Assembly: GCF_019797845.1 (NCBI RefSeq)
Contig: NZ_CP081864.1
Location: forward strand, 3,162,001 to 3,226,000
Source: Symbiopectobacterium purcellii
Lineage (GTDB): Bacteria; Pseudomonadota; Gammaproteobacteria; Enterobacterales; Enterobacteriaceae
DNA: 64,000 bases
Reading direction: 5' to 3'
The position numbers were made by a program, and so were the translations under genes. Below, piece after piece: positions 5,013 to 64,000 of the stretch. The notes below the pieces were generated by a model, which saw nothing but the letters and a program-made list of their open reading frames with translations, was not told where the DNA came from and ran no database searches. Within the stretch, counting starts at the first letter, position 1; every line of letters starts with the position of its first letter.

Positions 5013-5015
5013 CCC

Positions 5016-5046
5016 CATGCGCTCCCTTTAGGAGCGCATGTTTTTT
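5016..5046 (+). terminator. Rho-independent terminator of ppk-ppx
   Basis: A perfect 10-bp stem (CATGCGCTCC / GGAGCGCATG) with a five-base loop is followed by six T residues, starting four bases after the ppx stop codon. On the other strand it lies just downstream of the chemoreceptor gene. Confidence 0.9.
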
Positions 5047-5053
5047 CCCAACA

Positions 5054-7006: not shown

Positions 7007-7288
7007 TGGAAGCCGCTCCGTATTCCATTTAAGGGCTGGTTTACTGTGTCAAACGACCAACATCACGTCCGCCCATCTGCGTCGATAAGCAAGGCTTATT
7101 CTTAGTGTCGGTATCAATGACCGGCGTTGCGCCGATTTATTATGTATGGCACAGAAACCCCAAATGTTCACCACGCCGCGCTCGGCGAAATCCATCAGGA
7201 TCACAAAAGTAAGTCGAAGGATTGACCAACTTCATCAATTATGAATAAATAGAAACAGCGCATAAGCGCGGATACGAGAGTGATAATA

Positions 7289-7543
7289 ATGGCTACCCTG
7301 ATACACAAGCGACGAACCACCCTGGCAACCTTATCCCACAAGCGACGATCGTCCCGAGAGAGACGAAGCGGTTCGCGAATTGCGCAAGCGATTCTCCTGA
7401 TCAGTTTCTTTATCCTTGTAGGCCGTTTCGCTTACTCCTCCGTCAGTGCCTTTTTCCATCATCAAGATAAACAACAACGTATCGAACAAACGCTGAAATC
7501 ATCACCGGTCAACCCTACGCTTCCCTTCGTTAAAAAAGAGTAG
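7289..7543 (+). CDS. yfgG: YfgG-like small membrane protein (DUF2633)
   Basis: An 84-residue protein with a basic N-terminus (many Arg/Lys), one membrane helix (AQAILLISFFILVGRFAYSS) and a short polar tail. The segment from the helix into SSVSAFFHHQDK closely resembles E. coli YfgG, which also lies near ppx. I chose the ATG at 7289 because GAGAG sits eight bases before it; a GTG nine bases upstream is also in frame. YfgG has been linked in E. coli to nickel/cobalt tolerance, but nothing here shows function directly. Confidence 0.8.
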   Translation: MATLIHKRRTTLATLSHKRRSSRERRSGSRIAQAILLISFFILVGRFAYSSVSAFFHHQDKQQRIEQTLKSSPVNPTLPFVKKE

Positions 7544-7615
7544 CGCTCGCGCGTTAATAAAAAGTATCGCACACCTCTTTTAACACTTCAGTGTCATAAC
7601 TTCCGCGATCCCTTA

Positions 7616-7743
<128 letters not shown>

Positions 7744-7785
7744 TCTCCAACAATAAATAAAACGAATGGCGAGAATAAACCGGTA

Positions 7786-8250
7786 ATGATGAACAATGAT
7801 GTCCTGCGCAGCGTGCGCTATATGCTGAATTTCAATAATGACCACCTGCTAAAGATTCTGGCGCTGGTGGAAATGACCGTCCCTCCCCAGCAGTTGACGA
7901 GCTACGTCAAAAAAGAGGGAGAGGAAGGCTACCAGCCTTGCCCGGACATCGTGATGAGTTATTTCCTGACTGGGCTGATTCTGCAAAAACGCGGTCAAGA
8001 TGAAAAACAGCCTGCGCCGCAGTTTGAACGCAAAGTGACCAATAACATTATCCTGAAAAAACTGCGTGTCGCTTTCTCTCTAAAAACGGATGATATTCAG
8101 GCAATTTTGCTGACACAAAATTTTCGCATTTCACTGCCGGAAATTACCGCAATGATGCGCGCACCTGACCACAAAAACTATCGCACCTGCGGCGATCAGG
8201 TTATACGCTATTTTCTGAAAGGGCTGGCTGCACGGGTACGCAAAGGATAA
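7786..8250 (+). CDS. yehS: DUF1456 family protein (YehS-like)
   Basis: A 154-residue cytosolic protein made of two copies of the DUF1456 repeat: residues about 1-65 (NNDVLRSVRYMLNFNND, CPDIVMSYFLTGLI) and about 80-150 (LKKLRVAFSLKTDDI, CGDQVIRYFLKGLAA). It is very like E. coli YehS, whose function is unknown. The frame stays open upstream through the ERIC element, but family alignment puts the start at the ATG-ATG pair at 7786/7789 (MMNNDVLRS). Confidence 0.9.
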   Translation: MMNNDVLRSVRYMLNFNNDHLLKILALVEMTVPPQQLTSYVKKEGEEGYQPCPDIVMSYFLTGLILQKRGQDEKQPAPQFERKVTNNIILKKLRVAFSLKTDDIQAILLTQNFRISLPEITAMMRAPDHKNYRTCGDQVIRYFLKGLAARVRKG

Positions 8251-8362
8251 GGGCGCCCCCCCCACGAAAAGGCATTAGCGTTGTCTGACTATCCACCGTA
8301 AAAGACACTGACAACGCTCGATTTCTAGCACGTGAACGTGATAATCACTGAGAAAAACGATC

Positions 8363-9787
8363 ATGCCAAGCGTCAAAAAGCTCTCGGCCATTCGCCGCCG
8401 CATTTCCTTGTTGTTGCTGGACGATCCACCGCTGGTGGAAAGCATCATTACCCAGCAGCCCCCGGTTGCTGAGGATGAAAAAAAGCGGCTTCTCGATCAC
8501 ACCGCCGAGATCTGTACGCTGCTTACCGAATTGCATGCTGCTGACCTTGCCGATCTGCTGGAATCGCTGCCGCCCGAAGCGCGACAGGCGCTGTGGTGCC
8601 TGACACCGCTCGATAAGCGTGGCTTTGTGCTGTATGAGGCTTCTGACAGCATTTCTGATGGCCTTATCGCCCAGATGAGTGACAAAGATATCCTGCGCGC
8701 CATTCGCCCGCTGGATATCGATGAGCAGGCGCAGTTAGCGCGACGTCTGCCGCGCCACCTGCTAGGCCGTATTCTTACCGCACTGGAACCGCGCCAACGG
8801 GCGCAACTGCGCGAAACCATCCAGTACGATGAAGATTCTGTCGGTTATCTGGTTGATTTCAATCTGCTGACGGTACGACCGGACGTTACGCTGGCCGTAG
8901 TACAACGTTTTCTGCGTTGGCATAAGGTGATCCCCGACGCTACCGACAAACAGTTTGTCACCGATCGTAAAAACCGCCTGCTGGGTGAGCTCACGCTGAC
9001 CAATATTCTGCTACACAAGCCAAACACACGGGTTGAGCAGGCCATGGATCCTGAACCGATCCTGTTCGAACCGGAAACGGAAACTGATGATGTCGCCAGC
9101 GCATTCGAACGCTACGATCTGATTTCCGCCGCCGTTGTCGACAGCAAAGGCAAGCTGTTGGGACGCGTCACCGTGGAAGATATTCTGGACCGGGTCAACC
9201 GTACCAGCGATCACCATCTGCGCCGCTCCGGTGGGTTGACGGCGTCAGAAGATGTCTATGCGCCGGTAGCCACCGCGGTAAAAAACCGCTCGGGCTGGCT
9301 GGCTATCAACCTCTGCACCGCCTTGATCGCATCGAGGGTGATTGGCTTGTTCGAAGACACGCTGGCGCATCTGGTGGCGTTGGCAACGTTGATGCCGATT
9401 GTCGCGGGTATCGGCGGCAATACCGGCAACCAAACCATCACCATGATCGTGCGCGCGCTGGCGCTGCATCAGTTGGATCACGGCAAAAAATCGACCTTGC
9501 TGTTCAAAGAGTTGGGCGTTGCCGTTGTCAATGGTCTGGTGTGGGGTGCCGCGCTCGCCGTCATCACCGTGCTGCTCTATGGCAACATCGCCATGGGCGG
9601 TGTCATGATGTTGGCTATCATGCTTAACCTGCTGCTGGCCGCCACCATGGGGGTAACTATCCCGTTGGCGATGGTAAAACTGGGCCGCGATCCCGCCATC
9701 GGCTCCAGCGTGATGATTACTGCAATCACCGATACCGGCGGCTTTTTTATCTTCCTCGGGCTGGCGACCCTATTTTTACTGCCCTGA
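8363..9787 (+). CDS. mgtE: Magnesium transporter MgtE
   Basis: Mg2+ (and possibly Co2+) channel/transporter of the inner membrane, 474 residues. The order is an N-terminal superhelical MgtE_N domain (about 40-150), a pair of CBS domains (about 155-280) that gate the channel by binding Mg2+, then five membrane helices (about 300-474). The conserved pore motif GIGGNTGNQ and the TDTGGFF segment in the last helix are present. The upstream ribosome site is weak. Its last 12 bases overlap the end of galK on the opposite strand. Confidence 0.95.
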
Positions 9788-14767: not shown

Positions 14768-16018
14768 ATGATGAATACCACTCGTCTTTTTCGTCTGCTG
14801 TTGCTTGCGTTGGCGGTTATCGCCGCCGTTGTCATCTGGCGTTACTTACGCCCCGCCGAGGCGCCGACGGCGACCCCTTCAGCCCGTCAGGAAGCCAGTA
14901 ATAACAGTTCTCCCGCGCGCAGTGCGGGCGGTGGGCGGCGTTCCGCCATGCGCACATTGCCGCCCGTGCAGGCAGCGACCACGCGCGTCGCCGCGGTGCC
15001 GTATTACCTTTCGGGGTTGGGCACCATTACCGCTGCCAAGACCGTGACGGTGCGCAGCCGGGTTAACGGCGAACTGATGGCACTGCATTTTCAGGAAGGA
15101 CAACAGGTCAAGGCGGGCGATCTGCTGGCAGAAATTGACCCACGACCCTATCAGGTGGCGCTGACCCAGGCGCAAGGGCAATTGGCGAAAGATCAGGCCG
15201 CGCTGGCCAATGCGCGTCAGGATCTGGCGCGTTACCAACAACTGATTAAAACCAATCTGATTTCCCGTCAGGAACTGGATGCGCAGGCAGCACAGGTGCA
15301 CCAGGCTGAAGGCACGGTCAAGGCCGATGAAGGCTCGGTCGCCAGCGCCGAATTGCAACTTACCTATAGCCGTATCACCTCGCCGATCAATGGCCGTGTG
15401 GGACTTAAACAGGTGGATGTGGGCAACTACATCACCAGCGGCGACAGCACCGGTATTGTGGTATTGACCCAAACACACCCGATCGATGTCATCTTCACGT
15501 TACCGGAAGGTGATATCGCCACGGTGCTGAGCGCACAGAAATCGGGCCAACCGGTACCGGTTGAGGCCTGGGATCGCGCCAACCAGCACCAGCTGTCGCA
15601 AGGCAGCCTGCTCAGCATGGATAACCAGATTGATGCCACCACCGGCACCATCAAGCTAAAAGCCCGCTTTGAAAATCGCGATGACGCCCTGTTTCCCAAC
15701 CAGTTTGTCAATGTGCGCATGCAAGTCACTACCTTGCAAAACGCGCTGCTGGTGCCCCTGTCCGCCATTCAGATGGGCAGCGAAGGACGTTTTGTCTGGG
15801 TACTGAATGAGAAAAGTCAGGTCAGTAAACACAGCGTGACCGTCGGCATTCAATACGGTCAAGAAATGGTGGTGACGGCGGGGCTGAATGAGGGCGATCG
15901 CGTGGTTACCGACGGTATCGACCGTTTAACCGAAGGGGCACAGGTGGAAGTGATTAGCGCCGCTAACACCACCACCACACCGCCGTCCAAACACGCCACA
16001 CGCTGGGAGAAACCCTGA
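14768..16018 (+). CDS. mdtA: MdtA periplasmic adaptor of the MdtABC efflux pump
   Basis: Membrane-fusion protein linking the MdtBC RND transporter to TolC, 416 residues. It has one N-terminal anchor helix ([18 protein letters not shown]), a Pro/Ser-rich linker, the lipoyl half-motifs ([24 protein letters not shown] and [12 protein letters not shown] regions), a coiled-coil hairpin at about residues 130-200, and beta-barrel and membrane-proximal domains. The stop codon overlaps the mdtB start (ATGA), indicating coupled translation. First gene of mdtABCD-baeSR. Confidence 0.96.
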
Positions 16019-19000
16019 TGCAAGGGGAGATTCCGGCAGGCGGTGGCCCATCCCGCCTGTTTATCCTGCGCCCTATCGCCACAACATTGTTGATGCTGGC
16101 GATCCTGCTGGCGGGGATTATTGGCTATCGGGCATTACCGGTCTCTGCGCTGCCTGAAGTGGATTACCCAACTATTCAGGTGGTGACGCTCTACCCCGGA
16201 GCCAGTCCCGATGTGATTGCATCGGCGATCACCGCCCCCCTTGAGCGTCAGTTTGGGCAAATGTCCGGGCTGAAACAGATGTCGACGCAAAGTTCGGGCG
16301 GCGCATCGGTGATCACCCTGCAATTCCAGCTGACCCTGCCGTTAGATGTCGCAGAGCAGGACGTGCAGGCCGCTATCAACGCCGCCAACAATTTGTTGCC
16401 CAGCGATCTGCCCTACCCGCCGATTTACAGCAAGGTCAATCCGGCCGATCCACCGGTCATGACGCTGGCGGTAACATCCAGCGCCATGCCGATGACGCAA
16501 GTGCAGGATATGGTGGAAACGCGTATCGCGCAGAAAATGGCACAGGTCTCGGGCGTCGGGCGTGTCTCGCTAGCCGGCGGACAGCGGCCGTCGGTGCGGG
16601 TCAATTTCAACGCCAACGCGCTGGCTTCTTACGGGCTGGATAGCGAAACCCTGCGCAGCGCCATCACCAGCGCCAACGTCAACTCCGCCAAAGGCAGCCT
16701 GGACGGCCCAACGCGCGCGGTGACGCTGTCAGCCAACGACCAGATGAAATCCGCCGAGGATTATCGCCAGTTGATCGTTGCCTGGCGCAATGGTGCACCA
16801 GTACGGCTGCGCGATGTCGCCACCGTAGAGCAAGCGCCGGAAAACACCGCATTGGGTGCCTGGGCCAACCGTGAACAAGCGATCATCATCAATATCCAGC
16901 GCCAGCCGGGTGCCAACGTGATCACCACCACGGACAGCCTGCGTAACCTGCTGCCGACGTTAACCGCCAGTCTGCCGAAATCGGTGGCCGTCACCACGCT
17001 GACCGATCGCACCGCCAGTATCCGCGCATCCGTGAAGGATGTGCAGTTTGAACTGATGCTGGCGATTGCGCTGGTGATTATGGTTATCTACCTGTTTTTG
17101 CGCAATGCCATCGCCACGCTGATCCCAAGTATCGTGGTACCTCTGTCGCTGGTCGGCACCTTCGCCGCGATGTATTTCCTTGGTTTTTCGATCAACAACC
17201 TGACGCTGATGGCCCTCACCATTGCCACCGGTTTTGTGGTGGATGATGCCATCGTGGTGATCGAGAATATTTCGCGCTACATCGAAAAAGGAGAGAAACC
17301 GCTACATGCGGCATTAAAAGGCGCGGGAGAAATTGGTTTTACTATAATCTCACTGACGTTCTCGCTGATTGCGGTGCTGATCCCGTTGCTGTTTATGGGC
17401 GATATTATTGGCCGTCTGTTCCGCGAGTTTGCCATTACGCTGGCGATCGCGATTCTGATCTCCGGCATCGTTTCGCTCACGCTGACCCCAATGATGTGCG
17501 CCCGGTTGCTCACCCACCAGAGCCTGAATCGACAAAATGCCGTTACGCGCGCCAGCGAACGCTTTTTCTCACGGCTGGTTGCCCTGTATGGCAAAGGCTT
17601 ACGTCGGGTACTGAACCACCCGTGGATTACGCTCAGCGTGGCAATCGGTACGCTGGTGCTTACCGTTCTGCTCTACCTGTGGATCCCCAAGGGTTTTTTC
17701 CCGGTTCAGGATAACAGCATGATTCAGGGCACGTTACAGGCACCGCAAAGCGTCTCCTATGCCGATATAGCACAGCGCCAGCAGCAGGCGGTATCGCTGA
17801 TCATGCAAGATCCGGCGGTGCTAAACGTCTCTTCGTTTGTCGGCGTGGATGGCACCAACGCGGCGCTGAACAGTGCGCGTTTGCAGATCAACCTGAAACC
17901 GCTCAGTGAACGGCGCGATCGCCTGACCGATATCATCCCCGCTTGCAGGAGAAAACCGCGCAGCTCACCGGTATCACGCTCTATCTGCAACCGGTACAGG
18001 ATCTTACCATCGATACCCAGGTCAGCCGCACCCAGTATCAGTTCACGTTGCAGGCGATGTCGCTGGAGGATTTGAGCCACTGGGTACCGCCGCTGATGCG
18101 CGAACTGCAGCAACTGCCGCAGCTACAGGATGTGAGCAGCGACTGGCAGGATGATGCGGCGGTGGCTTATGTCAATGTCAACCGCGATGCGGCCAGCCGC
18201 CTTGGGCTGACCATGTCAGCCATCGACAATGCGCTGTATAACGCCTTTGGGCAGCGTCTGGTCTCAACGGTCTACACCCAGTCGAATCAATACCGTGTGG
18301 TGCTGGCACAGCAGACGGCGCACACAACCGGGGTCGGTGCGCTGAATGAAGTGCACATTAAAAACAGTGATGGCAACAGCGTGCCGCTGAATGCCGTTGC
18401 CACGCTGGAAGAGCGACGTGGTCCGCTGGCCTTGAACCGTATCGATCAGTTCCCGGCCACCACCATTTCGTTCAACGTTACCCCCGGTTATTCCCTTGGG
18501 GAAGCCGTGCAGGCGATTACGGCAGCGGAGCAACAGTTGCAGATGCCGACGGATATCGTCACCCACTTTCAAGGCAGTGCGCTGGCGTTTCAAGCGGCGC
18601 TGAGCAGCACCGTGTGGCTTATCGTTGCGGCGATTGTGGCGATGTACATCGTGCTCGGCGTGCTGTACGAAAGTTTTATTCACCCGATCACCATTCTTTC
18701 CACGCTGCCGACCGCCGGTGTCGGTGCACTACTGGCACTGATGGCGGCGGGCAACGAACTGGATGTGATTGCGATTATCGGCATCATTTTGCTGATCGGC
18801 ATCGTGAAGAAGAACGCCATCATGATGATCGATTTCGCGCTGGCCGCTGAACGCGAGCAAGGCATGACCCCTTACGATGCCATTTATCAGGCCTGTCTGC
18901 TGCGTTTTCGTCCGATCCTGATGACCACCCTGGCGGCGCTGCTGAGCGCCGTGCCGCTGATGCTCAGCAACGGCGTCGGTGCTGAACTGCGCCAACCGCT

Positions 19001-19136
19001 CGGTATCTGTATGGTGGGGGGATTGATCATGAGCCAGATTCTGACGCTGTTCACCACGCCGGTGATTTACCTGCTGTTTGACCGACTGGCACACCGTTTG
19101 CGTCGCGCCGAGCAGCCCGAGGAAGACATACAGTGA
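16018..19136 (+). pseudogene. mdtB: MdtB RND transporter subunit, interrupted by a one-base frameshift
   Basis: Inner-membrane RND subunit that pairs with MdtC. Frame one runs 16018-18075, but homology to MdtB leaves it at about 17940 and continues in another frame to 19136. At 17937-17940 there are four C residues; a fifth would restore [12 protein letters not shown] and give about 1039 residues, the length of E. coli MdtB (1040). Everything else is intact, including the twelve-helix pattern, the [12 protein letters not shown] segment in the first half and the [17 protein letters not shown] segment in the second. A C-run sequencing error or a recent real mutation are both possible. The frameshift falls in the second periplasmic domain, so the truncated product would lack the last membrane half. 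Confidence 0.9.
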
Positions 19137-31467: not shown

Positions 31468-32314
31468 GGGCCTGTTGACAATCATCGCCAAGAACCTGTT
31501 TTTTTGTAAAAGAATCTGTTTACATTCTGTCTTTTTTGGAAAAGCAGAATGCCAAGATTGATGCTCAGTGATGACCAATACGAACGGATTAGCCCGTTTT
31601 TGCCGGGAAAGGATTCGGATCCGGGACGAACAGCAGCAGATAATCGGCTTTTTGTCGAAGCGGTTTTATGGATCGCCCGAACTGGAAGCCCATGGAGAGA
31701 TTTACCACCCGATTTCGGACTCTGGAACTGTGTGTACAAACGCTTTGCCAGATGGTCACGGGCAGAAATATGGCATTCCGTTTTTGCTGAACTTGCGGGC
31801 GATGCCGATTTCGAGGAAATCTTCATCGACAGCACTATCGTACGGGTTCATCAGCATGCAGCGGGCGCTCCCAAAAAAACGGTGACCAGTCGATTGGTCG
31901 TTCTCGCGGGGGATTGACAACCAAGATTCACGCTCTGGTTGATGGGCTGGGCATGCTTGCCCGTTTTAGTTTGACTGGTGGTCAAAAGAGCGACACCAGA
32001 GAAGCATTGCCTTTACTTGGTGAATTGAAACCTTCAAGCTTGGCTGCAGACAAAGCCTACGATACGAATGTGATTCTACAATATCTGGAGTCGGTAGGCA
32101 TTCAGGCTGTCATCCCCAGCAAAGAGAATCGCCGTGAGCAACGCCCACTGGACAAACATCTTTACGTTTCACGCAATTTGATCGAACGTTTCTTTTGCCG
32201 TATCAAGCAATTTCGACGCGTAGCTACACGCTTCGACAAACTCTCAAAACGCTTCGCATCATTCGTTGCGCTCGCTGCTGCATTCGTCTGGCTGTGTTAA
32301 TTGTCAACAGCCCC
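31468..32314 (+). mobile_element. IS5-family insertion sequence, IS427-like group (complete)
   Basis: 847 bases bounded by imperfect terminal inverted repeats (GGGCCTGTTGACAATCA on the left, GGGGCTGTTGACAATTA read inward from the right) and flanked by TA on both sides, the target duplication typical of this group. It carries two overlapping transposase frames. It inserted between trhP and the hairpin terminator at 32332. The left end of an apparently identical copy is seen at 63980-64000 in the same orientation. Confidence 0.9.
31549..32300 (+). CDS. IS427-type transposase, expressed by programmed -1 frameshift
   Basis: Two frames, 31549-31917 and 31914-32300, encode the N- and C-terminal halves of a DDE transposase. 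A run of seven A residues at 31873-31879 is the expected slippery site: slipping back one base joins PKK to NGDQSIGRSRGGLTTKI, the usual fusion sequence of this group. The DDE residues are visible as Asp in FIDSTIVRVHQH, Asp in AADKAYDT and Glu in LIERFFCRIKQFRR. No other damage is seen, so the element is likely active. Confidence 0.88.
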
Positions 32315-32331
32315 TAGGAACCACCTCCTTG

Positions 32332-32362
32332 GCCAGCTCAATCTCCCTTGGGCTGGCTTTTT
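32332..32362 (+). terminator. Rho-independent terminator, originally of trhP
   Basis: GCCAGCTCAA / TTGGGCTGGC stem (one wobble pair) with a six-base loop and TTTTT. It lies directly after the IS and before yegS. By position it was the terminator for trhP before the IS inserted. Confidence 0.75.
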
Positions 32363-32472
32363 CTTTGCCTTTTTTCCTGCTTTATCCCTTGTTCTGATAC
32401 CGCTCTCGGCCATTTCTGGCTACGCTGTGTATACCTGTCATTGCCGCTTTTCAGCGCCAAAAGGAGCACGCC

Positions 32473-44456: not shown

Positions 44457-44502
44457 TATCACTCCCAACCGGCGTGCAAGAAGACGGTAGCCGATCGGAA
44501 TA

Positions 44503-44583
44503 CCGAGACTTCCCTACGCTGGCATTATCCAGATCAGGTGGTACGGGTATTTCTCAGCCTTCACAAAGAAGGGCACCCCGAGT
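44503..44583 (-). promoter_or_regulatory. TPP riboswitch (THI element) of thiMD
   Basis: On the minus strand the leader begins ACTCGGGGTGCCC, continues with the conserved GGCTGAGAAATACCC and ACCTGATCTGGATAATGCC segments, and ends GCGTAGGGAAGTCTC, which together form the thi-box of the thiamine pyrophosphate riboswitch. It ends about 45 bases before thiM. By analogy with E. coli thiM it would block translation when TPP is bound. Confidence 0.96.
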
Positions 44584-45157
44584 CATCGCAACATCAATTT
44601 ACTGTGGGACTGCCACAGCAAAGCCTATTCAGGATAATCATCAAACCAGAGTGTGTAAATTGATTTGTATTTGCCGACCGTCAAAGGCCGACGGCCTGGC
44701 TAGGCATTCATTCCCACGGAGTAAAAGGAAAGCAACCTGTTACGTTTTTTCACACTTACCCCCCAGTTTTCCTTCCGCTCTGCGTATGCCACGCTGGCAT
44801 TATATTCTTCCCCGTTGCGCTTATACCCTTAAATAATTAGTGTTACGCACCGGGGAAAATGAGATCGCCCCGATAAGTTGACACCGGTGAGGGATTAGGG
44901 ATGCCAATGCCGTGAACAGACAACCCAGCTTAACTATGGATGGTTGAGTGATGAATTAATAAAGAGAGGCAACCGCAAGGCGTTGTGTTATTAACCAGCT
45001 AACGATTAACGCTCCTGCTTTACCTGCGTCTCGTGTTACGCATTTTTTTACATAAGACGCTATAAAAAAATATTTCATGTCGGCGTATCTGGTGTATATT
45101 GGAAAATCAAAAAATATCTTGTAAGCTAATAATGTCTCTTCTTTTTAAAGGAACACC
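44584..45157. other. Long intergenic region between thiM leader and hns-like gene
   Basis: About 570 bases without a convincing gene. Around 44818-44840, TTATACCCTTAAATAATTAGTG resembles one terminus of an ERIC element and may be a fragment. The last 120 bases before the hns-like gene are very AT-rich with A-tracts, as expected for an H-NS-type autoregulated promoter. Confidence 0.4.
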
Positions 45158-50428: not shown

Positions 50429-51739
50429 ATGAAAGCAAAAACACTCACAACGTTACTGTCGCTTTGCCCCGCATTTTTATTGAGCATCGCGCACGCCGCC
50501 GATCGCCGCCAGGTGCAGGAACCCACCTACCCCCAGCATATTTGTACCACCCTGACGCCCGAACCGGGAAATAATCAGCAGCGGATTCAACAGGCCATCG
50601 ATCGCTGCCCTGCGGGTAACGCGGTGAAATTAATCGCCGCCAGCGGCCAAACTACCTTTTTAAGCGGTCCTCTGAGTATGCGTTCCGACACGTGGCTATG
50701 GGTGGATAAAGGTGCCGTGCTCGCAGCCTCTGCCAACCCCAGCGATTACGATAAAGGCCATGGCATTTGCGGCACGCTCAGCAATCAGAAGGGACACTGT
50801 CAGCCTTTTATTCATTTTGATAACGTACAGGGCGGCGGCCTGCTCGGCGAAGGCACGATTGATGGACGTGGCAACCAGATCATGGCGGGTAAGACTGAAA
50901 CCTGGTGGCAGTTGGCGCGGCGCGCGCAAAAGGAAGGGGGCAACCAGAACGTGCCTCGTCTTATCCAGGTGGATAACGCCAAAAACCTGACTTTTTATCA
51001 GATCCATTTAATCAACTCACCTAACTTTCATCTGGTGCTGAATAAGGTACAAGGGGTCACGGTGTGGGGAATTGTTATTGATACCCCAGCGGATGCGCGT
51101 AATACCGACGGTATCGATCCGGGAGCGGCAACCGATGTGACGATAGCAAAAAGCGTTATTCGCACCGGTGATGACAATATTGCGATAAAAGCAGGCAACA
51201 GTGGGCCAACGCGCTTTATCTCTATTCTGGATAACCACTTCTATGCCGGTCACGGCATGTCTATCGGCAGTGAGACCAACAGCGGTATCAGTAATATTCT
51301 GATTAAAGATCTGACCCTGGATGGCACAACGTCAGGCATCAGAATTAAAAGTGATTCCAGCCGCGGCGGAATCGTTGAAAACGTCAAGTTTGAGAATATC
51401 TGTTTACGCAATAACAAATGGCCGATTACGCTGGATACGGCCTATGAAGGCAAAAAAGGCAACCTTATTCCCTGGTACCACTCTATTTTGCTCAAAAATG
51501 TATCCGGTAGCGGCGGCCAAGTGGTACTTAACGGCTATGACAGCGATCACCCTCTTGATGTCACCTTTGACGCTGTGAAAATCGATAATCTTCAAGGCTG
51601 GTATCAACAGAACGCCATTGTTCATGTGGCCGAAGGCGGTTTAACCCCAGCGCCCTCGACCATCGCCAACGCAACAGCGGTGAAAACAGCGTATGCCTGT
51701 GAAGACAAATGGCGGCCTTTCCCGGCAACACGCCAATAG
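50429..51739 (+). CDS. Secreted endo-polygalacturonase (GH28)
   Basis: Hydrolyses the alpha-1,4-galacturonan backbone of plant pectin. 436 residues with a signal peptide (MKAKTLTTLLSLCPAFLLS, cleavage near AHA-AD). The mature right-handed beta-helix carries the GH28 catalytic motifs in order: NTDGIDPG, TGDDNIAIK, GHGMSIGSE and IRIKSD, so the three catalytic Asp, the His and the Arg-Lys pair are all present. It is probably exported to the medium by the Out type II system, as for Pectobacterium PehA and PehN. No KdgR box was evident upstream. This is the clearest plant-pathogen gene in the window; it stands alone. Confidence 0.94.
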   Translation: MKAKTLTTLLSLCPAFLLSIAHAADRRQVQEPTYPQHICTTLTPEPGNNQQRIQQAIDRCPAGNAVKLIAASGQTTFLSGPLSMRSDTWLWVDKGAVLAASANPSDYDKGHGICGTLSNQKGHCQPFIHFDNVQGGGLLGEGTIDGRGNQIMAGKTETWWQLARRAQKEGGNQNVPRLIQVDNAKNLTFYQIHLINSPNFHLVLNKVQGVTVWGIVIDTPADARNTDGIDPGAATDVTIAKSVIRTGDDNIAIKAGNSGPTRFISILDNHFYAGHGMSIGSETNSGISNILIKDLTLDGTTSGIRIKSDSSRGGIVENVKFENICLRNNKWPITLDTAYEGKKGNLIPWYHSILLKNVSGSGGQVVLNGYDSDHPLDVTFDAVKIDNLQGWYQQNAIVHVAEGGLTPAPSTIANATAVKTAYACEDKWRPFPATRQ

Positions 51740-53999: not shown

Positions 54000-54465
54000 G
54001 GTTTGAGTCGCGAAATGCGCTAAAACCAGCGGAGAATATCGCAGGATATTCTCCGCTGAAATCGATGTAGAGGATGTCATCGGGCTTAGCGCCACAACCC
54101 GGAGTGTAAGCATCCCGCTAAACAGTAGATAAAGTCATAAAGGGGCTGTAGCAGCATAAATAGTCCGTAGAACACTGGGCAAGGCACATACATACATGCC
54201 TAGCGTGCGGTCGTGACGACAAGGCAAGGACAGCGAGCATTCCTTTATAGCACCACCTACAAGCCGATATAAAAGCGTAGCTAGGGTACTTTCATCAGTG
54301 CTTCGCTTTTTAGATGCCTTAGTAAAATAAAAAGAAGCGATATTTGCAATTAAAATAAAATACTGACTATTTACTATTTGATGTGCTGGTCTATTTTCAT
54401 AGAGACAATCGAATATTGCAGAAATTCATGCAAAAATTTCTACTCAAAAGCGCGGGAGTACTCTC
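54000..54465. other. Intergenic region upstream of the FIST operon
   Basis: About 465 bases without a supportable gene. The last 150 bases are AT-rich and should contain the promoter of the four-gene signalling operon. GGGAG precedes the first start codon. I saw no NsrR, NorR or FNR consensus I would trust. Confidence 0.4.
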
Positions 54466-55575
54466 ATGAATTTCCAACTTAAATATGCAAATAGCACATC
54501 ACCAGATCCCGTCCAGGCTGTTGCCGATTTTGCCAGTAAGATTAGTCATGAAGATATCAATACGGTCATTTTTTTCTGTTCTCCTGACTACGATTTAAAC
54601 ATTTTAGGCAGAGAACTAAAAAAATCCTTTTCCTGCACCTGCATAGGTTGCACAACTTCACGGCAAATTGGTGCACAAGGGTTTCAACGTACAGGCTTAG
54701 TGGGGTTGGGCTTAAACAAAAATTTTAGCGCTCACACATTTACGATCCACCCTTTGGAGAACTATGCAGAAATAGCCGCTGAAATTGCTGAAGCTATTCA
54801 CCATGATAGTAAAGATAGACCCGCACTTAACCGTTTTAGTCTGTTACTGGTCGATGGCCTCTCAATGATTGAAGAGCGTCTGGTCGCAAGCCTTTATCAA
54901 CAAATAGGTAATATTCCGATTATTGGCGGTTCTGCTGGCGATGACTTACGTTTTGAAAAAGCGCATGTCTATGATGGGGATGGTCATTTTATCTCTAACG
55001 CAGCTATATTTGCGGTCATTGAGACCAAATCGACGGTCGTCACGTTTAAAGTTCAGCATTTCAATCACAGCGAGATCGAATTGGTTATTACTGAGGCCGA
55101 TCCAGAGAAACGACTTATCTTTGAGATAAACGGTGAACCAGCGGCACTTGCTTACGCGGAAGCCTTGGGGTTAACCGTATCTGAATTAACCCCAACCATC
55201 TTTTCCAGTAACCCGCTTGTGCTCTCCTTGGGCGACGATCCCTACGTTCGAGCCATCCAAAAATGGAATGCCGATTTTTCTCTTACCTGTTATTGCGCTA
55301 TTGAAGAAGGGCTTATCGTTTCTATCGCTAAAGCGGAGGATCCAGTCCAAACGCTAGAACGGGCCTTCAACAAGGTTAGAGAGACTCTAGCGGACCCCGT
55401 AATTATCGGTTGTGATTGCATCCTGCGTCGCCTCCAATTTGAACAAGACGGACTCGACCAACAGATTGCCGACATCATGGTGAAAAACCGCGTCGTAGGG
55501 TTTTCCACTTACGGTGAGCAATATAACGGATTGCATGTGAATCACACCTTCACCGGCATAGCCATTGGGGGATAG
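54466..55575 (+). CDS. FIST-domain sensor protein (NosP-like)
   Basis: Cytosolic 369-residue protein consisting only of FIST_N (about 30-225) and FIST_C (about 225-350). Recognisable segments are the GCTTSRQIG core of FIST_N, the IPIIGGSAGDDLRF loop, the VHPLE-like strand, and the C-terminal VVGFSTYGEQYNGLHVNHT. Stand-alone FIST proteins next to histidine kinases include the NosP nitric-oxide haemoproteins of Pseudomonas, Vibrio and Legionella. First gene of the operon; the kinase start overlaps or abuts its stop codon. The ligand is inferred, and a haem-binding residue was not verified. Confidence 0.85.
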   Translation: MNFQLKYANSTSPDPVQAVADFASKISHEDINTVIFFCSPDYDLNILGRELKKSFSCTCIGCTTSRQIGAQGFQRTGLVGLGLNKNFSAHTFTIHPLENYAEIAAEIAEAIHHDSKDRPALNRFSLLLVDGLSMIEERLVASLYQQIGNIPIIGGSAGDDLRFEKAHVYDGDGHFISNAAIFAVIETKSTVVTFKVQHFNHSEIELVITEADPEKRLIFEINGEPAALAYAEALGLTVSELTPTIFSSNPLVLSLGDDPYVRAIQKWNADFSLTCYCAIEEGLIVSIAKAEDPVQTLERAFNKVRETLADPVIIGCDCILRRLQFEQDGLDQQIADIMVKNRVVGFSTYGEQYNGLHVNHTFTGIAIGG

Positions 55576-55576
55576 T

Positions 55577-56694
55577 GTGTTGAACGAAAGAACCCATTCC
55601 ACGCCCACGGTATCAGGCATGTCCAACGCTGAGTACCAACGTAAGCTGGCGGCCAGAGATAAAACGATCGATGTATTAAAGCGCCGTATTATTCGAGAGA
55701 AGGCACAAGAGCATGCAACACCTTTCGCTATTCTCAAACAAAACGTGCGCTTGGAAAAAGTCGTCTCTCATAAAACCTTGGCATTAGAAAATGAACGCGG
55801 TGAGTTGGAAAAAGCACTTAAGGAGCTACGCTTGACTCAAGCACAACTCCTTCAAGCACAAAAGATGGAATCCATTGGTCAACTCGCCGCAGGCATCGCC
55901 CACGAGATAAACACGCCTACGCAATATGTCTGCGATAATGTGGGCTTTGTGAAAACTGCAGCGTCGTCGCTTATTAGCCTACTGGAAACGGCGCAAATAC
56001 TGTTCGACGCCATACGAGAGAAATGTGCTGGAGAGCCCGCCGTGGCCGCATTCGACACTGCGCGTAAACAGTTGAAAGTGGATTTCTTGTGTCGGCAAAT
56101 CCCTGGGGCGTTAGACGAATCACTTGAAGGTCTTGCTCATATCGCAAAAATCGTCGCCGCCATGAAAGAATTTTCTTACCCTTCTCACAACGAAAAAGCG
56201 CAGGTGGATGTACGCGATATTATCAACACAACAGTTACCGTCGCACGCAACGAGTGGAAATACGTTGCTGAACTTGAGACTCATTTTGAGGATAACCTAC
56301 CCCCCTTCCCTGCCTTAGGGATGCCATTGGCCAGGCAATTTTAAATCTGGTCGTCAATGCCGCTCATGCCATTACTGACACAATCCAGCAAACCGTTAAA
56401 GAAAAAGGCCATATCGCTATCTCTGCTGCTCGATGCGGTGAATACATGAAAATCCGTGTGCAAGACGATGGTATTGGTATTCCTGCCAGTATTCGTGACC
56501 GCATCTTCGACCCCTTTTTTACGACGAAACCCATAGGTAAAGGGACAGGCCAGGGCCTTGCGATTGTTTATTCAATTATTGTGGATAAACATCAAGGACA
56601 GATCCGGTGCGAGTCAGAAGAAGGCGTGGGTACAACATTTATCTTACTGCTGCCGCTTAATGCTCTCCCTGAGGAGCCTCCTGCATGCAAGTGA
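55577..56694 (+). pseudogene. Cytosolic histidine kinase, interrupted by a one-base frameshift
   Basis: Soluble kinase with an N-terminal coiled coil (about 20-100), a HisKA box with the phospho-accepting His in GQLAAGIAHEINTPTQYV, and a HATPase domain. The first frame stops at 56344 just after LPPFPALG. Continuing one frame over gives [18 protein letters not shown] (the N box), then [19 protein letters not shown] and [13 protein letters not shown] to 56694. One base is missing at the GGG of 56318-56320; restoring it yields about 373 residues. The start is a GTG with GGGGG upstream. It would receive the FIST signal and phosphorylate the two downstream receivers. Confidence 0.85.
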
Positions 56695-57783
56695 TGTTCG
56701 TTGACGATGAAAGCAGAGTGCTCTCCGGCATTGAACGAGCGCTGATAATGCAAAACATCGAATGGGAATGTCGATTTGCCAACAGTGGGCAAAAGGCACT
56801 CTCCATGCTGGAAGAACAACCGGCAGACGTCGTGATATCCGACATGCGCATGCCCTTTATGGATGGCGCTGAATTACTCTCACAAATACGTACACACTGG
56901 CCTGGTACAATACGCGTCATCCTGTCTGGCTATTCTGACCCGGATGCCACTGAACGTATGCTGGACGTCGCTCACCGCTTTGTCTCTAAACCCTGTGAAA
57001 GCAATGTGCTGATAGGCATGGTAAAAAAACACCTTGTTACTGCGCGATATGCTTCAGGATCCCGCTGTGGTCAATATCATAGGTCATGCGAGTCACTTGC
57101 CAACAGCCTCAAACGTGTTTGTCGAAATAGGTCAGCTTCTCGCGCATTCTGACAGCGATACACGACACATTACACGACTGCTAAGCAGTGACCCTGCTTT
57201 AAGCGCAAAAATTTTACAACTTGCCAACTCGACCTATTTCTCCAGAGGCAGCCACATAACGAATATTGCAAATGCCATCGGTCATTTGGGGTTGGATCAC
57301 GTTAAGATTCTCATCCTTGCATCGCAAGTATTTTCAGACGCCAAAACAGATCCCTATATAGCGCAATTACAGCAAAGCGCCCTGCTAGCCTCAACGCTAG
57401 CAGCCCAAATATCGGGTCATCAAAGTACGGCACAAGTCGCCGCACTGCTTGCCAATATCGCACAACTGATACCTGAAATCAGACAACACCATGGTCTGAC
57501 AGCACCAACACGCAGTAACACCACCGTTAACGCAGCTGTAAGCGCATATCTCCTGTCATTATGGGGATTGCCCCTAGATATTGTGGAAGCCGTTGCGTAC
57601 CACGAGCAGCCCTCTCTCATCACAGACACTGAATTCGGTGTAGTTGGTGCCGTGCATGTTGCTGTTGCTCTCGCGAATAGCCCCCCCCTTGACATGGATT
57701 ATCTTGAACAGACCGACATGCTTGGCAAGCAACCGTTATGGCAAAACATGCTCGCCCATATACAGGAATGCAATCATGACTGA
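56685..57783 (+). pseudogene. Receiver-HDOD response regulator, interrupted by a one-base frameshift
   Basis: The N-terminal receiver (residues 1-120) has the acidic pair in MFVDDES, the phospho-Asp in DVVISDMRMPFMDG and the Lys in RFVSKPCE. The C-terminal HDOD domain has LPTASNVFVEIGQLLA, LSSDPALSAKILQLANSTYF and AIGHLGLDHVKILIL. They lie in different frames, joined at a run of seven A residues (57023-57029). With six A residues the sequence reads MVKNTLLLRDMLQDPAV, giving one protein of about 365 residues. The start overlaps the kinase end by ten bases. HDOD proteins regulate signalling or c-di-GMP outputs without known enzymatic activity. Confidence 0.85.
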
Positions 57784-58918
57784 AATAGCGCATCCCCGCG
57801 TGCTCTGTGTAGACGATGAACCCAATGTACTCTCAGCGATGGAACGCAATCTTTTTGGTGAGTTTGACGTTACAACCGCACGCAGTGGTGAGGCCGGACT
57901 GGATGCCGTTCGTTGGGGGACACCGTTTGCCGTGATCATGTCAGATATGCGAATGCCAGGTATGGATGGCGCAACCTTCCTCGAAAAAACACGAGAAATC
58001 GCCCCCGACAGTGTACGCATCCTCCTGACGGGTCAAGCTGATATTGAATCGTCTATCGCGGCAATCAACAAAGGCGCAATCTTTCGTTACCTTTGTAAAC
58101 CTTGCTCGAAAGAAGAACTGGTTTTGGCACTCAACGATGCCGTTGGGCAGTATCAGCTGGTTCGTCTGGAAAAAGAATTATTAGAAACCACACTCAGCGC
58201 ATCTGTAAAAACGATGACAGAAGTACTCGCTATGGTGGCCCCCTGGGCCTTCCAGCGCTCAGCCTTTGCCCAATCCGGCGTGCAACATGCGCTGAAAAAA
58301 CTCGCTTGGCCTGATGAATGGATATACACCATCGCAGCGGCATTGAGCCAGATCGGCTGTGTTGGCATTCCGATCGATATCGTTCAAGCTGATGCAGCGC
58401 AGCGCCCGCTTTCTGAAGAAGAAAAAAAACTGCTAGAGGAACATCCTAATGTTGCCGCTCGGCTAGTGACAAACATCCCGCGGCTTGAGAAGGTCGCCGA
58501 TATTATCCGTTACCAAATGACAGCGGCTCCCGTCGATGCGCCTGTTGAAGTCATCAGGGGCGCACAACTGTTACACGCAACCCTACTGTTAGAACGCCAT
58601 GCAGCCAGAGGGTTAAGTCTGGATCATCCGAGAGAAATTCTGCGTGGTGCACACCCCGCCATTCCTGAATACATCATTAAAAGTCTGACAGATTTTCGCG
58701 CTAATCTGGCGGGTATCCGCACGGTACGGATTGGTGAATTAAAAACCGGTTGGATAATTGATGAGGATATCCGTACCAACAACGATTTGATGGTGTTGAC
58801 CAAAGGGCATGAACTCACCGATACCGAAATATCCGCATTGCAACGGCTCCTCAGTCTGGGCGCTATCGAAGAGCCTATTCAAGTTTGTGTCACCCGTGAG
58901 GCTGAAACGCACTCGTGA
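57776..58918 (+). CDS. Response regulator with degenerate HD-GYP domain
   Basis: 380 residues. The receiver domain shows CVDDEP, the phospho-Asp in AVIMSDMRMPGMDG, and YLCKPCSKEE. A coiled linker leads to a C-terminal domain that keeps the HD-GYP scaffold (GIPIDIV, LSEEEKKLLEEHPNVAARLVTNIPRLEKVADIIRYQ) but not its metal ligands: the HD(I)GK site reads SQIGCVG, the HH pair reads YQM, and no GYP is present. It cannot be a c-di-GMP phosphodiesterase of the normal kind and is more likely an allosteric partner, as described for HnoD in Shewanella. The ATG overlaps the HDOD stop by eight bases; a terminator follows. Confidence 0.88.
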   Translation: MTEIAHPRVLCVDDEPNVLSAMERNLFGEFDVTTARSGEAGLDAVRWGTPFAVIMSDMRMPGMDGATFLEKTREIAPDSVRILLTGQADIESSIAAINKGAIFRYLCKPCSKEELVLALNDAVGQYQLVRLEKELLETTLSASVKTMTEVLAMVAPWAFQRSAFAQSGVQHALKKLAWPDEWIYTIAAALSQIGCVGIPIDIVQADAAQRPLSEEEKKLLEEHPNVAARLVTNIPRLEKVADIIRYQMTAAPVDAPVEVIRGAQLLHATLLLERHAARGLSLDHPREILRGAHPAIPEYIIKSLTDFRANLAGIRTVRIGELKTGWIIDEDIRTNNDLMVLTKGHELTDTEISALQRLLSLGAIEEPIQVCVTREAETHS

Positions 58919-58942
58919 TGCGTTGAGGTAGTGTAGATAAGA

Positions 58943-58964
58943 GCGCTTAAAGCGCCCTTTTTTT
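58943..58964 (+). terminator. Terminator of the FIST operon
   Basis: GCGCTT-A-AAGCGC stem followed by CC and seven T residues, about 25 bases after the last stop codon. The same DNA on the minus strand encodes the last residues and stop codon of the DUF6896-like gene. Confidence 0.85.
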
Positions 58965-59936
58965 ACGACGGAGGCGTTGATGCCTTAAATCACTCTCTCC
59001 TTTGCGTCCATTCATCAGGTAGTGTACCTCGCAGAGTACACGGTATCGGGAAAAGAATGCGGCAAGCGCGCCATGTAACTCATGAGCCCAAGTAAGGCGA
59101 TCCATGCCAAGTTCAAAGAACTGACGTACTGCTGAGGCATCTTCACGGCGGTGGAAAACATCATTTCGCAACTCTCGGAGAGGATCGGCATGTTTCTTCA
59201 TCATCCTTCCTAGATTATCCGACATTGGGATGAGCGCTTTGAACGTTGCAGGCCGATCTTCTCCAAGCAAAAGGCGCATTTTAAGATCCCCAAATCCCTC
59301 GCAAGTGGCTCTTAAAAAACCAAGCCACGTCGAAAGATAGATCCGGTGATCGACCTTTTCTCGTTGACTAAGGTAATTGTTTTTATCCCCCTTTTTACTG
59401 AGCGCCCTATAATTTTCAAGCATAAGATCTGCTGCCTGGAAAGTATGAGCGTACAGTGTGAAGACAGGATCTTGGTTACGACTCGGAAGCACATCACCGG
59501 GAAGACGTGAATCAATATCAATAGCAAACATACTAGGCTTGTTTGCCAGGTAACACAGGTCAAGCCCTACACAAACTAACGCCCCCGTAGAGAGAGCGTT
59601 CTCGAGACTCTCGGCAAGCTCAGTTTCACTATCAAAGCCATACGTTGCGAGTTCATTGCCGGCAAATTGGTAAAGCCACCATAAATTGAACTCCCCAATT
59701 TCCCCGTGTTCACCAAAATCGAAATCAATGCATCCTTCTTCAAAGCTCACTGCACACCCGGCACCGTGTTTATAATATTCTCCACCGCCGTCGAGCGTTC
59801 CACGAACAGGAATATCCATTTTAATCCAGTTATAACAACTGGATGGCAAAGGAATGCCTGACCGATACATTAATTGAACTGCAGCCATAACGTTTTTTTG
59901 AAAATCAGAAATTAAATGCGCGAGTCCATCATCCAT
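58947..59936 (-). CDS. DUF6896-like protein with C-terminal HEPN-type motif
   Basis: 329 residues. The first about 110 (LISDFQKNVMAAVQLMYRSGIPLP, YKHGAGCAVSFEEGCIDFDFGEHGE, FNLWWLYQF) resemble DUF6896, as I recall it. The C-terminal half is helical and contains LRELRNDVFHRRED, an Rx4H motif of the kind used by HEPN ribonucleases. Whether this is a real HEPN active site is inference. The start has GGAG five bases upstream. The end (RRKKRAL, then TAA) is encoded inside the terminator of the convergent operon, which suggests the reading frame was extended or truncated by a junction there. Confidence 0.65.
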   Translation of the reverse strand: MDDGLAHLISDFQKNVMAAVQLMYRSGIPLPSSCYNWIKMDIPVRGTLDGGGEYYKHGAGCAVSFEEGCIDFDFGEHGEIGEFNLWWLYQFAGNELATYGFDSETELAESLENALSTGALVCVGLDLCYLANKPSMFAIDIDSRLPGDVLPSRNQDPVFTLYAHTFQAADLMLENYRALSKKGDKNNYLSQREKVDHRIYLSTWLGFLRATCEGFGDLKMRLLLGEDRPATFKALIPMSDNLGRMMKKHADPLRELRNDVFHRREDASAVRQFFELGMDRLTWAHELHGALAAFFSRYRVLCEVHYLMNGRKGESDLRHQRLRRKKRAL

Positions 59937-60033
59937 ATTTTCTCCGGCTATGTCATAACGGTGTCACACCATAAATTTATTTCTGCATTAATGTGATTAT
60001 TAAGAATTATGCGATGACAAACCATGATAAAAA

Positions 60034-60060
60034 TAAAAAAGCCCTCAATGATGAGGGCTT
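60034..60060 (-). terminator. Minus-strand terminator, in the position of a guaA terminator
   Basis: GCCCTCA-TCAT-TGAGGGC stem followed on the minus strand by TTTTTTATTTTTA. No complete gene on that strand lies directly upstream in this window, only the guaA-like 3' end at 60108, so it reads as the original guaA terminator left behind. Confidence 0.75.
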
Positions 60061-60107
60061 AGCGATGTTTTACTGCTTATACGTGCCGGCTGTTGCCAGA
60101 CGCGAAA

Positions 60108-60122
60108 TCACTCCCACTCGAT
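60108..60122 (-). other. Possible duplicated guaA 3' end (island attachment site)
   Basis: On the minus strand ATCGAGTGGGAGTGA encodes IEWE and a stop, the C-terminus of enterobacterial GMP synthase as I know it. The match stops abruptly upstream, where AT-rich DNA begins, and a terminator follows downstream. The 3' end of guaA is a known integration site, so this looks like one att copy of an island extending to the right, with intact guaA expected beyond the window. Confidence 0.5.
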
Positions 60123-60136
60123 CATAAACAAAACAA

Positions 60137-61894: not shown

Positions 61895-62948
61895 GGCTTT
61901 GTTGAATAAATAGAACTTTTAGGTGAGCATCTGCTCAGATCACTACCGTCATTTCAACATCTGCACCCCATGGCAAAGCAAAAATTTAAAATCACCAACT
62001 GGTCTACGTACAACAAAGCTCTCAAGCTGCGCGGGTCTCTGACAATATGGCTGGATGAGTCGTCCGTTTCTGCATGGACGGAGAAAACAACGCCTGAACG
62101 GCGTGGCCGGCCGCGTCACTACTCAGATATGGCTATCACCACTGTTCTGATGATGAAACGCGTGTTTGGCCTTTCGCTAAGGGCTTTACAGGGCTTCGTT
62201 GACTCCATTTTTAAACTGATGGGGCTGCCGCTAAGATGCCCAGACTACTCGCTGCTCAGCAAGCGAGCAAAGACCGTTAAAATCAGCATAAAAACGCCGA
62301 CCCGTGGTGAAATCTCCCATCTGGTCATTGACGCAACCGGCCTGAAGGTCTTTGGCGAAGGCGAATGGAAAGTCCGGCAGCATGGTGCAGAAAGACGGCG
62401 GGTGTGGCGTAAGCTGCATCTGGCCACAGACAGTGTGACGCATGAAATTATCTGTGCTGATTTGTCACTCAGCGGCACGACTGATGCTCAGGCTCTACCG
62501 GGCCTGATAAACCAGACCCACCGGAAAATCAGGGAAGCGTCGGCTGACGGCGCTTACGATACCCGCTACTGTCATGATGTGCTGCTGAGGAAGAGGATAA
62601 AGCCTCTTATTCCTCCACGACGTGGTGCGCAATATTGGCCAGACCGATACCATGAGCGTAATCACGCGGTTGCGGATCAGCGTCTAAGCGGCAGTAACGA
62701 TGTCTGGAAAAAGAAAGTGGGCTATCATAGACGCTCAGTGGCTGAAACAGCGATATTCCGGTTCAAAACGCTTCTGGGCGATCATCTAAGTCTACGTGAC
62801 TATGATGCGCAGGTAGGTGAGGCAATGGCGATGGTCAAAGCGCTTAACAAAATGACGCTGTTAGGCATGCCGAACAGCATCCGGATCGCATAACAATCGA
62901 TCTGCTAGGGGAGCTGTAGTCACAAGTTCTGATTTATTCAACAAAGCC
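61895..62948 (+). mobile_element. IS903-like insertion sequence (IS5 family)
   Basis: 1054 bases with terminal inverted repeats GGCTTTGTTGAATAAAT on the left and the same sequence read inward from the right. An exact 9-bp target duplication, CATAAAAAT, flanks it at 61886-61894 and 62949-62957. It carries one intact transposase gene and lies in the type ISP gene. The intact duplication means it transposed here directly and has not recombined since. Confidence 0.95.
61970..62893 (+). CDS. IS903-type transposase
   Basis: DDE transposase of 307 residues, the standard IS903 length. Acidic catalytic positions are visible as Asp in HLVIDATGLKVFG, Asp in EASADGAYDTR and Glu in SVAETAIFRFKTLLG. No stop codons or frameshifts, so probably functional. 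It is the only large gene of the element. Confidence 0.95.
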   Translation: MAKQKFKITNWSTYNKALKLRGSLTIWLDESSVSAWTEKTTPERRGRPRHYSDMAITTVLMMKRVFGLSLRALQGFVDSIFKLMGLPLRCPDYSLLSKRAKTVKISIKTPTRGEISHLVIDATGLKVFGEGEWKVRQHGAERRRVWRKLHLATDSVTHEIICADLSLSGTTDAQALPGLINQTHRKIREASADGAYDTRYCHDVLLRKRIKPLIPPRRGAQYWPDRYHERNHAVADQRLSGSNDVWKKKVGYHRRSVAETAIFRFKTLLGDHLSLRDYDAQVGEAMAMVKALNKMTLLGMPNSIRIA

Positions 62949-63979
62949 CATAAAAATCATCTTTACCTCATTGAGAGTAAAGTAAAGAACCAGTATCAAT
63001 AGTCGCTTTATATGGCTCAACTGTTTCGTAGTTTAAATGTAAGTCAGCCAGATCACGACCAGCTTTAGCGTAGCTCAAAAAATCCTCATATTTCTTCACA
63101 CATGGAATACGCGGAAGCTCTTTAGATAAATTATCAATATATCGATCAATGTAATTTTTATTATTCAATAGTGCATGTGTATAATAAAAAACATCCAATT
63201 TGCTAATAGATTTTTCATTATAAAAATTGCAAAAATGCATCAATCCAAAATCAGAAATGGCATCCCTTCTAGATACTTTATTAAAAGATTTACTGCATTG
63301 ACTCTTATAAAAAAGGTCTTCAGTCTTACTAGAGGGCTCCGAATCGTCGTAGATATATAGTGGAAAACATTGTCCTTTAGATATCATCTCATAGTCTGGT
63401 ATTGTATTTACAATAATAGCACTGAATTTTTTGGTCGCACCTCTACCTATAACACAAATTACAAGATTATCTGAATCTTTCTCAGGAAATATTTGAGGGA
63501 TCTGATAAACCCTCTCATTTAATTGGCGATTAAAATAAAGCCAAGATTTCGTATATGGTCTATACATCGACATTCTTATGTTGTCTGGGTTTAAATCTAT
63601 AACCTTACCTTTTCTTAAGCTTTCTTTTAAGTTTGCCGTCCAACTAATATTCTCTGGATTATTGTCAATAAAACCAGACAAATCCTTATCATTTATATTT
63701 GACAAGCCTGTCAATCGACCTCTATCACGATTGTACGTCGCAATTAGCTTCATGATGTTTGTCTCTAGAGATTTTTTTGAATACTGATAACACCATGAGT
63801 CTCTGGTCGTTAGAATCCCTTGAGAAAAATTCACAAAAATCGAAACTGAACTTTTGTCTTTTTTATTACCTATCTCAATAAAGTCACTAAAACTATCATC
63901 ACGCTGATTAAGCCAGTCATTATTAGAATCAGGTGTAATGACCTGCCACCCATGAACTTTTTCAATACCATTGATACTA

Positions 63980-64000
63980 GGGCCTGTTGACAATCATCGC
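63980..64000 (+). mobile_element. Left end of a second IS427-like element
   Basis: GGGCCTGTTGACAATCATCG, identical to the first 20 bases of the IS at 31468, preceded by CTA with TA as target. The element continues past the window edge. It truncates the type ISP gene and lies in the same orientation as the first copy, 32.5 kb away. Confidence 0.85.

Follow-up and report, generated by a model that had tools for sequence, protein, structure and literature searches.

A four-gene operon lies at positions 54466-58918 on the + strand of the window, the whole 64,000-nucleotide stretch of Symbiopectobacterium purcellii DNA analysed here (assembly GCF_019797845.1, contig NZ_CP081864.1, positions 3,162,001 to 3,226,000). 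According to Pfam and the list of open reading frames (ORFs), it encodes, in this order, a FIST protein, a soluble histidine kinase, a regulator composed of a receiver and an HDOD domain (REC-HDOD) and a regulator composed of a receiver and a degenerate HD-GYP domain. The evidence tips modestly towards the view that this operon elaborates on the NosP-NosK-NosR type of two-component switch by adding a second regulator, which bears an HDOD domain, and that the circuit in this genome is probably dead or dying. It is possible, if rather doubtful, that such operons form a distinct conserved NosP-type branch shared by enterobacteria and Xanthomonadaceae, where a single kinase would serve two regulators that are not cyclic di-GMP (c-di-GMP) enzymes, the signal would pass through protein contacts, and symbiont lineages would be losing the system (broken here and shredded in genome G031).

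The gene arrangement is conserved among relatives. FIST matches were found in 20 of 198 genomes of the window's family: nine are full length with at least 70% identity (the window's own included), that of G031 is fragmented, and ten show only 26-34% identity. The four-gene order, for which the original prediction proposed a search across proteobacteria, recurs on the same strand in all nine opened orthologs other than the window (L030-L038), Phytobacter included (L032 is Phytobacter diazotrophicus). The FIST gene adjoins the histidine kinase gene in all nine, as it does in the window, where the kinase is broken; homologous loci with an unlinked FIST gene, named at the outset as evidence against the idea, were not seen among them. 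In L030, whose operon is intact, successive genes overlap by 11, 10 and 8 bases. G031 (49% complete) retains pieces of all four genes, each spread over several frames. A CHASE4-GGDEF-EAL gene is located 1.8 kb upstream of FIST in L037. E. coli genomes contain no DNA similar to a 3,935-base query.

Related operons are also found outside the family. FIST matches at E 1e-60 or better occur in 5 of 119 genomes of the family of G211, which is taken as Xanthomonadaceae because the FIST of L184 is 90% identical to a protein named Xanthomonas translucens and that of L183 is 91% identical to a Luteimonas protein. L184 shows the full four-gene order at about 50% identity, L183 carries FIST, kinase and REC-HD without HDOD, and L185-L187 combine FIST, kinase and REC-HDOD with a bare receiver (Pfam on two of the three receivers). 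Counting the nine operons from the window's family and the five Xanthomonadaceae-like ones, 13 of the 14 include HDOD and 11 the degenerate HD gene. In the family of G306, two of 220 genomes pass E 1e-70; each has FIST beside a kinase of this type, and the short stretches available contain neither an HDOD nor an HD match. In the family of G566 no FIST reached E 1e-60 in 78 genomes. In 40 stretches around more distant FISTs, neither HDOD nor HD was matched at E 1e-6, and a kinase match over 200 residues was present in two (L121, L126); these counts come from tblastn only, a simple gene caller having missed the FIST gene in several. Plasmid FISTs (167 records) are all below 60% identity, and among three plasmid contexts two are Azospirillum nosP genes beside a NahK/ErcS kinase and one is a record without annotation.

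The FIST protein is intact, with FIST_N (PF08495, 132.4 bits) and FIST_C (PF10442, 74.5 bits) domains, and is the stand-alone protein that had been predicted. Its likeness to NosP is carried by tree position, conserved residues and kinase linkage. In a tree of 51 FISTs (47 NosP-type and 4 chemoreceptor-type, root drawn at the midpoint) it falls among the NosP-type proteins, and the nine family and five Xanthomonadaceae-like proteins are grouped with support 99/98. Cys62, Cys318 and Tyr349 are kept in all 40 aligned FISTs; His198 is kept in 9/9 close and 28/31 distant FISTs, and His357 in 9/9 and 30/31. Elsewhere, His357 and His198 are found in six and four, respectively, of seven FISTs (L060-L066), and in five and four of L183-L187, among which L185-L187 carry His at position 349. 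The 13 long FIST proteins of the family all have Asn and Pro at positions 198 and 357. These long proteins (L012-L020, L023-L026), a second FIST type that thereby lacks both histidines, measure 587-792 amino acids (aa), and 8 of the 13 show a chemoreceptor signature by a pattern test. His198 and His357 are candidate haem ligands only. The predicted structure of the window FIST is confident (mean pLDDT 91.0). No solved structure was credibly matched by sequence, and the only fold matches in the PDB at E < 0.001 are three FBXO22 chains (8ua3_C, 2.5e-7, TM about 0.5). FBXO22 is the protein that supplied the F in the name FIST.

The kinase of L030 is a single frame in which Pfam detects HATPase_c and no sensor domain. 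The prediction of a soluble kinase without its own sensor domain is borne out to that extent, with the reservation that in the window its halves lie in different frames. The HEINT motif of the window kinase fits the kinase/phosphatase motif H-E/D-x-x-T/N given in the accessible part of PMC12570481. The two outputs, HDOD and degenerate HD-GYP, were correctly anticipated: both domains are detected by Pfam and the HD catalytic motifs are lost. Compared with one canonical REC-HD-GYP protein (from L138), the window protein and 11/11 relatives have Ser-Gln or Ser-His in place of the His-Asp pair, an altered His-His pair and no GYP loop. A receiver followed by an HD-GYP-related domain with an altered catalytic motif is a feature that this protein has in common with Burkholderia NosR, as far as the part of the NosR account available describes it. 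Across the four proteins of the operon, Pfam detected FIST, HATPase_c, receiver, HDOD and HD_5 domains and no GGDEF, EAL or H-NOX domain. This agrees with the predicted absence of an EAL or GGDEF protein and, with the HD motifs lost, makes an output through protein contact reasonable. The window's genome has 17 GGDEF and 11 EAL matches, and these separate proteins might be partners in trans. In motif and neighbourhood scans, a loosely EAL-like pattern within the kinases of L037 and L038 and a weak defence-family match of the receiver piece (scan of four neighbours) are taken as chance.

In the intact relatives, FIST may bind haem and, through the haem, nitric oxide (NO) or a related ligand. 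It would then contact the sensorless partner and make it switch between kinase and phosphatase activity, whichever way this control may run, and the kinase would hand phosphate to the receivers of both regulators. Both regulators would act by binding other proteins, for example the cell's separate GGDEF and EAL enzymes, because HDOD and a catalytically lost HD-GYP are without c-di-GMP chemistry. If the intact relatives work in this way, NosP-type sensing gains an HDOD output branch beyond its usual enzymes, and HDOD regulators would acquire a role open to testing.

Several observations weigh against equating these proteins with NosP and NosR. The window FIST matches the NosP model NF041558 over its full length with 384.8 bits, below the equivalog cut-off of 450, so strict membership does not hold. 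Ten other proteins were scored: L030, L033, L037, L184 and L183 reach 378-404, L186 309.7 and L189 433.2, all below 450, and the cut-off is passed by L188 (471.5), Azospirillum (500.7) and L122 (593.3). By model score, the window FIST group is best described as a putative sister group of the curated NosP set. His198 is absent from some NosP-type proteins (3/31 distant FISTs and L187), and His357 is not exclusive to the type, since it is also retained by four of 13 other distant FISTs, none of which has His198. The open-access literature searched, accessible in part, names no haem-ligating residue of NosP. The best NCBIfam model for the last protein is NosR NF053512, at 205.1 bits against a cut-off of 400. 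NosR models exceed their cut-off in 14 of 299 genomes; among 15 NosR-type loci (14 over the cut-off and one at 325 bits), flanks of about 1.5 kb include such a kinase, scoring above 150 bits, but no profile-detected FIST in ten, and a weak FIST match in one (L157). The NosR-type kinase-regulator pair is thus common and does not always need FIST, which is one possible input.

It is conceivable, although judged unlikely, that the same architecture serves a FIST ligand other than NO, such as haem availability, redox state sensed through the conserved cysteines, or another small ligand. The low NosP scores of the FIST group and the invariance of Cys62 and Cys318 fit this idea, as does the inhibition of the FIST protein CdpA of V. 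cholerae by haem (PMC8846402, accessible in part). However, the adjoining kinase and regulator are of the types known from the published NO circuit (PMC12570481, also accessible in part), and the NosP-type His positions are retained.

The prediction of four overlapping genes is upheld as to order, coordinates and, in L030, overlaps, but four intact genes are ruled out in the window: frameshifts split both the kinase gene and the REC-HDOD gene, which the prediction had overlooked. The first kinase frame ends at a stop and HATPase_c (82.3 bits) continues in a different frame to about 56694; likewise, the receiver frame stops and HDOD (104.4 bits) is found in a different frame (Table 1). An alignment with the relative G004 attributes both breaks to indels of one base, located near 56304 and 57029 and adjacent to homopolymer runs 6 and 7 long. 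Both genes are open end to end in 9/9 orthologs (also in a tblastn view). Comparison of the window with L030 gives crude dN/dS values of 0.12-0.28 for all segments, the broken ones included, so any loss would be recent. The kinase frame loses its ATPase half and the HDOD regulator is cut after its receiver, and for these two reasons the circuit in this genome is probably dead or dying. Together with the shredded copy in G031, the broken copy would show a circuit being lost.

In a census, 464 kb of the window's genome was compared with G004 genes. Of 257 G004 genes with a counterpart, 17 are frameshifted and 17 carry an in-frame stop; in the reverse comparison, 275 genes of the window's genome have a counterpart in G004, eight of them frameshifted and two with a stop, and six of these eight frameshifts overlap genes of the first list by coordinates. 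Five of the 17 frameshifts involve indels of 11, 11, 16, 50 and 80 bases, and seven are indels of 1-2 bases beside runs of at least 6, the two operon breaks included. Pfam, applied to ten flagged genes, matches five (T2SS F, EamA, NiFe hydrogenase large and small subunits, secretin); the other five may be spurious frames. Compared with G004, the type II secretion locus (L195, about 3870-8515; G000:C1 3045870-3050515) has a frameshifted secretin gene, an 80-base deletion in the next gene and a stop in T2SS F, and the NiFe hydrogenase locus (G000:C1 2937554-2942512; L200-L201) has a stop in the large subunit and a frameshift in the small one. Within the window, 43 genes have a G004 counterpart, of which 36 are intact and seven flagged. 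Three of the seven are frame splits (kinase, REC-HDOD and an efflux-pump gene at 16018-19136), and four carry stops and resemble overlapping or start-extended frames. The efflux pump is of AcrB type and occupies two frames here and one in G004.

Real erosion is favoured by the long indels and by the clustering of damage in two pathways, and it is fairly likely that the operon frameshifts are real loss rather than sequencing error. That both are sequencing or assembly errors, and that the operon works in the strain, seems improbable but has arguments of its own: each break alters one base in a homopolymer run, a kind of change that such errors favour and to which seven of the 17 census frameshifts belong, dN/dS is as low in the broken segments as in the intact ones, and the genome, with the window on a single 4.94 Mb contig, is estimated to be 100% complete. 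Indels of 11-80 bases lie beyond such errors, however; flagged genes are concentrated in type II secretion and NiFe hydrogenase, two breaks fall within one operon, and genome erosion has been described for the genus Symbiopectobacterium (PMC10019282). Slippage that bridges the frames and yields some full-length protein would suit the position of both breaks at homopolymer runs and the conserved codons beyond them, but is very improbable given that the runs are short and that the nine orthologs are in frame without it.

A role in sensing by a plant pathogen, as originally suggested, is doubtful because the genome belongs with Symbiopectobacterium, which NCBI places in a clade of insect endosymbionts. 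Among four other genomes of the genus, FIST is present in two (99 and 93% identity) and has no match in two. The 99% relative, G004, corresponds to Candidatus Symbiopectobacterium sp. NZEC151, a strain isolated from potato tubers that caused small or no lesions in potato assays (PMC10019282). The 93% relative carries the label Serratia marcescens. So does the record of L031 (JADMXW010000017.1), yet the genome that it matches, G002, falls within the window's genus, and the record may be misnamed. The block 54116-60126, which includes the operon, is 97% identical to G004, compared with about 89-94% in the adjoining aligned blocks, which may reflect recent exchange or stronger constraint.

Table 1. 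Operon features in the window
Feature	Position	Strand	Basis
FIST sensor gene, NosP-like auxiliary sensor, 369 aa, intact	54466..55575	+	FIST_N + FIST_C
Histidine kinase part 1, phospho-acceptor region GIAHEINTPTQ, frame ends at stop	55565..56344	+	Relatives align to ~56317
Histidine kinase part 2, HATPase_c domain, other frame	56302..56694	+	Pfam, alignment to relatives
REC part of REC-HDOD regulator	56685..57152	+	Relatives align to ~57038, frame then exits gene
HDOD part of REC-HDOD regulator, other frame	57025..57783 (start approximate)	+	Pfam, alignment to relatives
REC + degenerate HD-GYP regulator, NosR-like, 380 aa, intact	57776..58918	+	Pfam, NCBIfam, motif alignment
Terminator-like hairpin + T run, just 3' of operon	58943..58965	+	Terminator scan

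The start of the last gene is most likely the conserved ATG at 57776 rather than the mechanical ORF start at 57644. The terminator scan gave 6 sites overall against 5.8 in shuffles, that is, no excess. Elsewhere in the window are a glycosyl hydrolase family 28 (polygalacturonase-type) gene with an open frame (50429-51739), a thiamine pyrophosphate (TPP) riboswitch (44494-44590, - strand), a match to the CyaR small RNA (32314-32363, + strand), a DDE transposase (61970-62893, + strand) and, at the window end, a frame matching type IIG restriction-methylation proteins (62968-63993, - strand; defence-family scan among others).

The closest published circuit is nosRPK of Burkholderia, with three of the four parts. 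In B. pseudomallei it pairs a FIST protein with a kinase that has no recognised sensor domain and a regulator whose HD-GYP domain is degenerate; phosphorylation assays showed that the kinase is inhibited by NosP, more strongly with an NO donor, and that it phosphorylates the regulator, and species differ in the sign of the NO effect (PMC12570481, the source, here and below, of what is said of nosRPK, being accessible in part). Shared with the B. pseudomallei and B. thailandensis systems are the stand-alone FIST, the sensorless soluble kinase and the degenerate HD-GYP regulator, and the accessible part of the account describes no c-di-GMP enzyme in the operon. The Burkholderia operons differ in having three genes in another order and no REC-HDOD, and their NosR has its motif altered to HG-GTP, whereas the window protein lacks both the HD pair and the GYP loop; two genes, moreover, are broken in the window operon. 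A search of the open-access literature found no description of a FIST or NosP protein combined with an HDOD regulator, which does not in itself show absence from print. The REC-HDOD regulator is apparently a new element added to the NosP-NosK-NosR kind, in a variant that appears to be conserved and undescribed.

The NosP-NahK systems of Pseudomonas, Legionella, Azospirillum and others likewise place a FIST protein beside a histidine kinase (for Legionella, PMC8846402, accessible in part). They differ in that Azospirillum NosP adjoins a hybrid NahK/ErcS kinase, and in that the Legionella output is a diguanylate cyclase-phosphodiesterase (DGC-PDE) in the accessible part of the same source. The HnoX-HnoK-HnoB-HnoD system of Shewanella and Vibrio has H-NOX instead of FIST as its sensor and includes the PDE HnoB. 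Its HnoD is a degenerate HD-GYP protein. In the accessible part of PMC8738867, HnoD is described with an inactive DGC domain. As in the arrangement proposed here, one kinase acts on more than one regulator in the Hno system, and HnoD is an inhibitor without activity of its own (PMC8846402, PMC8738867, both accessible in part).

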